Assembly (NCBI RefSeq): GCF_002234675.1
Contig: NC_019880.2
Coordinates: 21,319,789 to 21,383,788 of the forward strand
Direction: 5' to 3'
From: Oryzias latipes
Taxonomy: Eukaryota; Chordata; Actinopteri; Beloniformes; Adrianichthyidae
Length of the DNA: 64,000 nucleotides
Part shown: positions 2,958 to 6,300 of the stretch, piece after piece
Position numbering within the stretch: the stretch's first letter is position 1
Layout: every line of letters begins with the position of its first letter
Program-made: the position numbers and the translations under genes
Notes under the pieces: model-generated
What the model was told of the DNA's origin: nothing
Databases searched by the model: none
The model's input: only the letters and a program-made list of their open reading frames with translations

Positions 2958-3303
2958 TCATAGCTTTAACTCGTTGGCAACTTTGGAAGCAATGTTTTTG
3001 AAGGCGATGGACGACCCCGATATCCTCTTGAAGCGGACTCCGTTGAGGGACAGGCGAGGCAGCTTGCACACCTCCATCTCCCACTGCACCATGTTCTCCG
3101 CCCTCCCGTCTCCATGGAAACACAGAAGCAGGAAGCTCTCTTGCTGTTTGTAGTTGCAGTCGTTGGCGTCGAGCACCTTGAAGATTTCCTCCATGATGTC
3201 GCAGGGTTCCATGGAGGTGGTGGTCCTCATACTCCAGGTGAACCTGAGGGAGCGGGGCTTCCCGTCTTTACCTTCCCCTTTTTGATCCCCAGGTACATGG
3301 CGA
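2958..3303 (-). CDS. mark3: MARK3 terminal exon, readable in two frames (KA1 frame or short-tail frame)
   Basis: The acceptor is CTTGACAG before the T at 3303. Joined directly to exon 15 (phase 2), the frame is [19 protein letters not shown] and runs through the whole KA1 domain to TGA at 2958-2960. KA1 binds acidic phospholipids and restrains the kinase. Joined through the 80-nt exon at 5171-5250, the same bases are read one frame over as [18 protein letters not shown], ending SGSPGV and a stop at 3227-3229. Because that stop lies in the last exon, the shorter transcript would not be an obvious target of nonsense-mediated decay. Confidence 0.8.
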
Positions 3304-6300
3304 CTGTCAAGGAAAAGCAAAGAGTTCCTGTTAGCGGAGTCCGCCAACGTTCTGGCGCTGTGGCGGCGTCAAAGTCTTCACGCTTTAGGAAAACGTTCTG
3401 ATCCACATGCATGTTTGTCTGCTTCTGAGAGCAAACCATGGAAGGAGAACCTCCCTGAGGCTGAACGTCTGTCTCTGCAGGGGTTAGTCAGAAGCCTTCG
3501 GAGCAGAACCGCTCCGGATGCAGAGCCTCTTCTTGGCTTTGGAAGGGTTCTGTGGGCCGGAGCCCCACGGAACGGGCTTCGGGCCATGCCAACACCACGC
3601 CATGCAAACACAGAAGCCGGCAGGAGCAGCATGCAGGCAAACACCGCCTCTGTCCACGGGGGGAGGGAGGGGTGGGGGTTATAGAAGACAGGTAGTCTCA
3701 CCTTGAGCCCTCAAGTCTCCCGTTTCTCTCAAACTCTGTGGAGACTCTGGGGCGCACGAGAAGATCGGACACGGTGGCGAGGGAGGGAGGTCGTGAAGGG
3801 GAGAAAAAAAACAAGGTTGTGGATTGTGCTCGATCAGAACCAGACAAGGTCGATTCTACAGAACGCAAAAAGAACTGAGAGAACCACTAAACCACCCCCC
3901 CCCCCCCCCAAATAAAAAGAAGAAGAAACGCGTGGAAGTGGAGAGCAGTGAGGAAGATGAGAAGGTGAGGCAGCACAGACGGCGGCAGACGCAGAACCTG
4001 CTGCTTCGTCACGGTTGAAGCAGATTTCAAACGCCGGAGCGGCACCGTGAACACGGGTCACACGGCCAAGCAGACAACGGAGGGACGGCTGGGAGGGAAG
4101 TCCGCTTCTACCCTCAACGCTGAAGGGTCCGCCCACAAACGTGACGGACAGCTGTCAGGGTGACGCTCCGATCTGGACCTGAACCTCGTGATGTCACATC
4201 ACAGAGGTGTTTGTCAGGACGGAAGCTGCTGCTGCTGGAATGGAAACGTTTTTGGAAAAGACTAAAACCAAACCAACAGAACCAGAACAGAACCACTGTG
4301 ACATCCGTGGGAGGAAGGGGAGCCGGTGCAGACGGACACAGAAACAGAACTTTATCTTGTTATTAAATCACAGCCAAGTCCGCTTTGGATTTGAGTTACC
4401 GGCCAAAACTCAGCAGAGCAGCTTCTGTGACACTTTAGCACGAGGGAAACCTCCCAGCAAAACTAGGAATATAAGAAAACGCCGGCGGGTCACTAGGACG
4501 ACGCCCACGGAGCCCAAACCTGCAGCTAAGCTCAGAACATGAGTCATGGAAAGTCCGGGACCACAAACGCAGCCGGCTCTTCAGAGCGGCGGCAGACAGG
4601 AAGCCTGCGTTCCGACGTCTGTGTGGCGTGAAGCCAAAGCAGCGTCACCTTTCTGCTGCAGCGCAGCACGCCGCAGGGACACGCCTACCCTTTCTCTGGA
4701 GTCTAAACGTTCCTGGTTTAAGTGGACGGGGGAGAGCGGGCTCCCATCATGCCCTGCAGGACAGAAAACAGGACGGGTGGAGGAGGAGGAGGACACTCCT
4801 GACTCAACAACAAGAGGAAGAGTGGGCAGACAGCGGCAGCAGCAGGGCCTGAGTCAGCCGGAGAGAGAGAAAAACAAAGATCACAAGACCAAGAGAGGCA
4901 GGCAGGGACCCCCCAGGCCAGACAGCAGGGACTGAACCAGCTTTACTCTACATCTTCATCTTCCTACAACTGTCTTCTGCTCGCCAATCTGAAAGACAGA
5001 ACATCGCGAGTCTGAAGACAATGCAGAAAAATCCATGCAGGGCAGAAAGAGAGAAAGAAAGGAAAGGATACTCTGATGGATGGAATGAGGACAGGCCAAA
5101 GGAGGAGGAGCTTGGAGGGATGGCAGAAAGTAAAAGAGAAGGGAGAGGAACCGAAAGGCAGAAGACTTACTAAGGGTCTTTCCTCCCTGGGTAGAGGGGT
5201 TGACAGAGCCCGTTTTGGCCGTCTGCCGTTTGGCCGGGTCAATACTGACCCTAGGCAGAGAGGAAGAGCAGCGAGAGGCACAGGTTAAGGACAACGGAGG
5301 GCGAGGAAGACAAAAGTAGACGAGCTGTGAGGAGAGGACAGGGGATGGGAGGTGAATGAGCCCATGAGGAGGAGGAGGTGGTGAACAAAACCTGTGGAAT
5401 CGGGATGTGAGGGGGTGGAGCAGAGATGTGCAGAAGACCTGAGCCGACCAAACATTCGTGGGACCGTCTGTAAGAAAAACGGCCGTTTGCAGGGATGAGG
5501 AAGGACTGCGCTCCTGTCACCCATCAGCCACCAGAGGGCGCCGGGGGCTTCAGCCAACCCTTAAACCAATGGCTGGTTCAGTCTGACCAACTACCCAACA
5601 GTGGAGCAACCCCACCTCCTCAACAAGAAGCCCCAGAATGACCCGCCAACACCTCCTCTTCATGCTCCACTCGGTTTGGGCCAACGTGAAGTGTGACATC
5701 TTTTCTAGCAGAATCGGGAAAAGCGCTGAAACCCGGGGCAGATGACCTCTGCACAAATGCAGACTGCTCCAACAAATGAGGTGGGAACATCTGATGTAAT
5801 CACACTACAGTGAGGGTGTCGGGGCCCCCCACCAGCAATAATACACCAGTGATTCTGAGGACTTCATCACTTTCTGAAACCATGACTGCAGACCTGTGGG
5901 GCCTGAAACCTGCTCCCCTCCCCATGATCCAGCGAATGACACGTCCTTAGATGACCTCTCCTGTTGCTGCGGGAGGGAAAACGTCACGGCTTGAAAGACA
6001 GAACTAGAACCAACGTCAGAAAGATCAGAGTCTTTCTTCCATCTGCGGCACGAGAAACCGGAGCGACGTTTAGGCCAAAGGTCATTCTTCTGTATGAGAA
6101 CAAATGCAGCAGAAAAGAGCGGGAAACACGCGGCTACAACATTAACTCGTCAGGAGAAAGTCGCCGCGAGAAAACCAGGAGGAGGTGCCAATGGGAGCGG
6201 TGTCTGCACTGCACACACGCTGCTTGACTCGTTTGTCGCCGCTTTTGGTGCTGGAGTCTGTCTCTCACAATCAGCGTCGACCCGCACACACACACGGTCT

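Follow-up and report, generated by a model that had tools for sequence, protein, structure and literature searches.

In human MARK4, the long isoform (MARK4L) lacks exon 16, and the stop codon is thereby shifted (PMC9355243). The KA1 domain is described as variable among MARK4 isoforms, to the point of being absent (PMC6890249). According to a review, exclusion of exon 16 is regulated by PTBP1, and the resulting form is enriched in proliferating cells (PMC10835012). This kind of switch is thus already published for MARK4; here, we place a predicted counterpart in MARK3. The element in question is an 80-nucleotide (nt) cassette exon (5171-5250, minus strand) in a 64,000-nt stretch of the Oryzias latipes genome (NC_019880.2, 21,319,789-21,383,788), which we call the window and to which all coordinates are relative. 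We consider it very probable that this exon is a genuine and old frame-shifting cassette of MARK3, homologous to an exon of two MARK4-like genes of the same genome and hence, most likely, also to exon 16 of human MARK4. A first-pass annotation of the same DNA had proposed the exon and its effect on the reading frame, without mention of the published MARK4S/MARK4L choice.

Alternative exons have also been reported for MARK3 itself. Mouse Mark3 exon 16 is a target of STRAP; neural progenitors include it and neuronal cells skip it (PMC7684319), and a METTL3 study likewise concerns a MARK3 exon 16 (PMC10020087). On a broader scale, dual coding through alternative splicing of non-triplet length has been catalogued as 54 events above a 60-nt threshold, using smg-1 data (PMC13247117); MARK1 to MARK4 are absent from the main text of that study. 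No description of the MARK3 version of the switch was found in the open literature searched, with subscription papers, isoform predictions and bioRxiv lying outside the search, and the combination of MARK3, microexon and zebrafish gave no literature match. Annotated fish mark3 transcripts that carry the second-frame tail may exist.

The MARK3 gene lies on the minus strand of the window, as do all of the exons described here. The 3' part of an upstream exon (8695-8880), the ...LTSKLTR exon, ends at the donor CGCAG/gtaagt, with 2 nt (AG) carried over in the KA1 register. It is followed by a 27-nt in-frame microexon (7933-7959) encoding NMSFRFTKR, by the 80-nt exon, with acceptor ctgcctag/GG and donor CTTA/gtaagt, and by a 45-nt exon (3702-3746) that is open in both the KA1 frame and a second frame. 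The last coding exon begins at 3303, after ttgacag. Its first 77 nt (3227-3303) can be read twice, up to a second-frame TGA at 3229-3227, and the remainder (2958-3226) encodes the KA1 domain, in the skipping form only (Pfam PF02149, E 1.4e-20; PDB 3ose and 1ul7). Because 80 is 2 modulo 3, inclusion of the 80-nt exon shifts the frame; the 27-nt and 45-nt exons are multiples of three, so that among the three the shift comes from the 80-nt exon only. Skipping it gives a product with an intact KA1 domain ending in VANELKL and a stop codon. Including it puts the last exon in the second frame, which stops ahead of KA1. The KA1 frame never reads the 80-nt exon, in either splice form, and the dual-coded length is 45 + 77 nt, spread over two exons. 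Since the 45-nt exon is present and open in the second frame, the second-frame tail is probably the version of 67 residues, which is basic (12 K/R against 3 D/E). The first-pass annotation had overlooked the 45-nt exon and the 27-nt microexon, and had the 80-nt exon, its splice sites, both open frames, the stop at 3227 and the loss of KA1 right to the base. A donor-like sequence, AAG/GTAAAG, also occurs on the minus strand inside the dual-coded stretch of the last exon (3266-3274) and is a possible cryptic splice site.

A blind scan of the 5.4-kb intron recovered the same exons. Acceptor-donor pairs 20 to 200 nt apart were ranked by summed splice score, with hand-entered weight matrices. Of 3525 such pairs, 1170 were open in the incoming frame, and the top three of these were the 45-nt exon, followed by the 80-nt and then the 27-nt exon. 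The acceptor of the 80-nt exon is strong (rank 2 of 321); its donor ranks only 19 of 340 because the exon-side TTA is weak.

The openness of the second frame had been offered as a sign of selection, and that argument fails. When the KA1-frame protein is held and its codons are redrawn synonymously, the last-exon part keeps an open second frame in 77% of redraws, and both dual parts together do so in 43 to 54%. Beyond its own stop, the second frame is open for another 86 codons. We thus rejected openness as evidence. The claim of selection itself survives by another route, through homologous exons in MARK4-like genes and the codon positions at which these genes differ.

At least six KA1 loci are present in the 734-Mb genome of 25 contigs. 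One is the window (locus C22), and the other five were examined as 20-kb segments ending at the KA1 exon, which in all cases cover the span from the upstream to the last exon. An exon homologous to the upstream exon of MARK3 is present at all five. Two loci, C13 and C14, which we call MARK4-like, encode KA1 and carry in addition an 83-nt exon homologous to the 80-nt exon, RVTLDPSKRQSSNKSVSGCTLPQGTKTV in C13 and RVNLDPSKRQGSNKSVSGCTLPQGSKTV in C14, with a donor (TTA/gtaagt) identical to that of MARK3. The peptide of the 80-nt exon resembles theirs (RVTLDPSKRQ... and RVNLDPSKRQ...), with scores of 50 and 49 that none of 5000 shuffles equalled. Both loci also have the 45-nt exon, with second-frame peptides RSQTNLRESADLRSQ and RSQMNLRESGDLRSQ, and their last exons end in the second frame as VAIYLGIRKRPSPGPPDAAGM and VAIYLGIKKRPSPGPSDVAGI, each followed by a stop. 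The second-frame start of the last exon is VAMYLGIKK... in MARK3 and VAIYLGIRK... or VAIYLGIKK... in the MARK4-like genes. Across the six 20-kb loci, tblastn matches between the MARK3 and MARK4-like 80/83-nt exon peptides have E values of 0.011 to 0.016; tail pieces match in the expected places with E values from 0.007 to 0.44, of which only the better ones stand out.

The cassette was not found at the two MARK1-like loci (C15 and C1) or the MARK2-like locus (C18), where the best tblastn E values were 0.41 for the 80/83-nt exon peptide and 0.17 for the tail peptide. Thus, the switch is seen at three of three MARK3/4-like loci and at none of three MARK1/2-like loci. C15 has a candidate 45-nt exon whose second frame is open but dissimilar to those of the other loci. 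Peptides like that of the microexon occur at C18 (NLSFRFPRR) and C15 (AMSFRSTRR).

The gene names carry different degrees of support. The host gene is likely MARK3: over 94 shared residues, the KA1 domain of the window is identical to MARK3 (1ul7) at 75 and to MARK1 (3ose) at 73, and it has the GDGRAEN of MARK3 where C15 and C1 have the GDARQ of MARK1. Its linker also matches what we take to be the human MARK3 linker. In the PDB, the C-terminus is best matched by 3ose (MARK1), whose construct is the longer one. Kinase exons were dropped as naming markers, being non-discriminating: that of the window scores slightly higher against MARK2 than against MARK3 (167.6 versus 165.5 bits), and that of C14 best matches MARK2 and does not discriminate among MARKs. 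The upstream exon of MARK3 is nearest to that of the MARK1-like C15 (75% identity, versus 70% for C13 and 69% for C14). C13 and C14 are named MARK4-like on the basis of the shared tail and by exclusion, and their KA1 domains end in ELEL and DLEL, respectively. These domains are much diverged, with 36% (C13) and 31% (C14) identity to the KA1 of the window, and are still matched by PF02149.

We find that the frame under constraint between the two MARK4-like genes changes around the second-frame stop. The dual region compared comprises the 45-nt exon and the last exon up to that stop, 110 nt in all. There, 21 of 110 nt differ, and 15 of the 21 differences fall at KA1 codon position 1, which is position 3 of the second frame. 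As a result, only 6 of 37 second-frame codons are changed, stop included (random mean 13.1, P 0.0002), as against 16 of 37 KA1-frame codons (random mean 13.1, P 0.97). The control consisted of 86 KA1 codons, aligned on protein, that begin a few bases beyond the stop. In this control the pattern is reversed: KA1 third positions hold 46 of the 77 differences, the KA1 frame has changed in 22 of 86 codons (random mean 46.5, a count this low arising in none of 20,000 random placements), and the second frame has changed in 51 of 86 (P 0.98). Judged by these codon positions, the constrained frame is the second frame before its stop and the KA1 frame after it. The KA1-frame linker ahead of KA1 shows no constraint between C13 and C14. 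Together, the homologous exons in both MARK4-like genes and the codon-position patterns mark the second frame as coding sequence under selection, at least in this pair.

Comparisons that include MARK3 point in the same direction. In a stretch made up of the 45-nt exon and the opening 29 nt of the last exon, the stronger constraint between MARK3 and the two MARK4-like genes again lies on the second frame (P 0.032 and 0.004; 0.31 and 0.90 for the KA1 frame). In the 80-nt exon, MARK3 differs from each of the two by 12 residues, relative to random means of 15.8 and 17.2 (P 0.025 and 0.003). Since this exon lies outside the KA1 frame, the likeness of its peptide cannot be an echo of KA1 conservation.

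The sequence surrounding the exon suggests how its inclusion might be controlled. The 80-nt exon is preceded by 200 nt (5251-5450) with 76% C/T, a candidate PTB-binding stretch; the corresponding values are 83% in C13 and 74% in C14. No more than 0.1% of the windows within a locus are this rich in C/T, which puts each value at, or close to, the top of its 20-kb locus. For comparison, the 200 nt upstream of the other MARK3 exons are 61% (27-nt exon), 67% (45-nt exon) and 52% (last exon) C/T. The 200 nt downstream (4971-5170) are also pyrimidine-rich (72%; 63% in C13 and 60% in C14), and contain 18 occurrences of TTCT, TCTT, TCTCT or CTCTCT, a number reached by 0.8% of intron windows. By analogy with MARK4, and from this composition, the MARK3 exon is probably under PTB-type repression. 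PTB-type proteins bound to the pyrimidine-rich flanks would repress inclusion, which might then rise where PTBP1 is low, as in neurons and muscle.

Each splice choice would yield a distinct kinase. Skipping the 80-nt exon, with or without the 45-nt exon, would give a long kinase with a C-terminal KA1 domain. With the 80-nt exon included, the second frame would be read through the 45-nt exon and on into the last exon for 77 nt, ending the protein with a short basic tail and removing KA1. The first-pass annotation had proposed that such an RNA would escape decay; from the position of the stop within the last coding exon, decay is predicted to be unlikely. KA1 is autoinhibitory in PAR-1 and MARK1, and it binds acidic phospholipid (PMC6451319; PMC9223676). 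The included, KA1-less form should thus lack both properties, and would be a kinase freed from KA1 autoinhibition and from KA1-mediated binding of acidic phospholipid.

The tail itself resembles no known domain: a Pfam search returned only AJAP1_PANP_C, below the cut-off (E 0.058), and a PDB sequence search gave a single arginase match (E 0.041) that we judged to be chance. This would fit a switch whose role is to reduce kinase output by way of an unstable or unproductive product, and not to supply a working kinase without KA1. We regard this explanation as unlikely, given the stop in the last coding exon and the amino acid constraint on the tail in the MARK4-like pair, which a mere off-switch would not need.

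What the genomic sequence supports for MARK3 is the exon anatomy, the two frames, the homology with the MARK4-like exons and the second-frame constraint, seen in the MARK4-like pair and more weakly between MARK3 and that pair. Several results weigh against our reading. The exon side of the donor is weak. The MARK3 exon is the more diverged, with 13 of 28 residues identical to the MARK4-like peptides, and a genome search with the MARK4-like exon peptide gave two matches, C13 and C14, the MARK3 exon not being among them. For the 29-nt part of the last exon by itself, constraint on the second frame between MARK3 and the MARK4-like genes does not reach significance (P 0.78 and 0.10). Both the 80-nt exon and the control were codon-aligned by way of their proteins, which favors similarity in that frame. 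The tests of MARK3 against these genes give weaker results and have the MARK4 branches in common; they are not independent and do not isolate MARK3. For PTB control, the evidence consists of composition and analogy, and the upstream count of the four short PTB-type motifs (7) is ordinary, being reached by 22% of intron windows. Finally, the only direct link from the fish exons to human exon 16 is their position together with the human sequence as we take it to be.

Some of these results would also be expected if the switch arose in the ancestor of MARK3 and MARK4 and was retained by MARK4, leaving in MARK3 a recognizable exon that is no longer used. The low peptide identity, the absence of significant constraint in the 29-nt part, and the inability of the exon test to separate the MARK3 branch from the MARK4 branches are all compatible with such a relic. 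On the other side, the open frames, the length of 2 modulo 3, both splice sites, the 45-nt exon and the pyrimidine-rich flanks have all remained intact after an old duplication, and the exon has accumulated fewer amino acid changes than random placement would produce. We rate a relic as unlikely, slightly less probable again than a switch that lowers output.

The human sequence was also used to ask whether the second frame might look conserved merely through conservation of the overlapping KA1 frame. Second-frame identity to what we take to be human MARK4 is 22 of 36 residues. Simulations in which identical residues keep their codons give a mean of 21.3, as such an echo would predict, and letting changed residues also take the nearest codon raises the expectation to 27, above the observed value. 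With random codons, by contrast, the mean is 9.5 and none of 20,000 simulations reaches 22. This simulation is ambiguous because its outcome depends on the amount of synonymous change assumed, and it was replaced by the paralogue test described above. In that test, the second frame has been preserved between C13 and C14 and the KA1 frame has changed no more slowly than random substitution would predict, the favored codon position switches around the second-frame stop, and the 80-nt exon is similar although it is not KA1-coded. An echo is contradicted for the MARK4-like pair, and is very improbable overall. Least probable of all is a cryptic exon or splicing noise with a frame open by chance, because, although acceptors abound in pyrimidine-rich introns and 43% of shuffled 80-mers are open in one given frame, homologous exons with the same phase shift stand in the same place in two paralogues, which contradicts noise, and the exon came second of 1170 candidates in the blind scan.

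A frame-shifting cassette in MARK3 that is homologous to the MARK4-like exon remains our preferred reading. With moderate confidence, we further propose that the second-frame tail (R.Q..LRE.GDLR.QVA.YLGIK) is a functional linear element, under purifying selection since before MARK3 and MARK4 split. If so, vertebrate MARK3 and MARK4 would swap an autoinhibitory, lipid-binding domain for a dedicated tail encoded by the same nucleotides, and MARK1 and MARK2 would be without it. The switch may have originated before all four vertebrate MARKs, with loss in MARK1 and MARK2, or in the ancestor of MARK3 and MARK4.

The presence of the MARK4S/MARK4L choice in a second gene would mean that it is an ancient trait shared by part of the MARK/PAR-1 family and not a peculiarity of MARK4. 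It would also provide a clear-cut vertebrate example of dual coding, with substitutions that change codon phase around an overlapping stop. We predict that cells with little PTB contain a MARK3 that lacks KA1 and is possibly released. Studies of MARK3 splicing that measure KA1-frame exons only would overlook this isoform.

Other features of the window lie outside this system. Between MARK3 exons, a 10-bp unit, GGAGGCGTGT, is repeated in tandem for 40.8 copies (13251-13658). An exon-like open reading frame (ORF) on the plus strand (44163-44579) matches the metallophosphoesterase family PF12850 (E 8.8e-13), and by eye it resembles VPS29. About 2.2 kb at 51980-54170 are GC-rich, with 60 to 75% GC in the four 500-base windows of 52000-53999, and strand-asymmetric. 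Long open frames overlap there on both strands, those of the plus strand being rich in proline and arginine, and the two frames scanned gave no Pfam match. Rfam gave no matches over the window at the gathering threshold. Among viral and bacterial genome collections, a search for KA1 relatives produced 9 and 47 pattern matches, respectively, and no confirmed relatives.

Among described systems, the closest to the MARK3 cassette is the choice between human MARK4S and MARK4L, as far as the published accounts of it describe: in both, a cassette exon near the 3' end alters the stop and the C-terminal tail. The two human MARK4 tails, long and short, as we take their sequences to be, can be co-encoded in one 110-nt string with the same phase relation. 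None of 20,000 shuffled tails passes 22 nt in this comparison, which was repeated without the uncertain first residues and whose outcome is in line with that from the paralogues; no literature match was found for these tail peptide strings. Unlike the human exon 16 system, the switch described here is in MARK3 and is known from genomic sequence. Its exon is also of different length, 80 nt versus 83 nt in the fish MARK4-like genes, and about half of its residues differ. Mark3 exon 16 of the mouse and METTL3 studies is not defined in the relevant passages of those reports (PMC7684319; PMC10020087); that of the mouse may be the 27-nt or the 45-nt exon, and is not necessarily the 80-nt one. The MARK3 cassette further resembles the dual-coding cases catalogued from smg-1 data, in which one stretch is read in two frames according to splice choice and, in the cases described there, one product is often the more disordered (PMC13247117). 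It differs from them in that two exons are dual-coded and in that, within the MARK4-like pair, the stronger constraint acts on the frame that lacks KA1.

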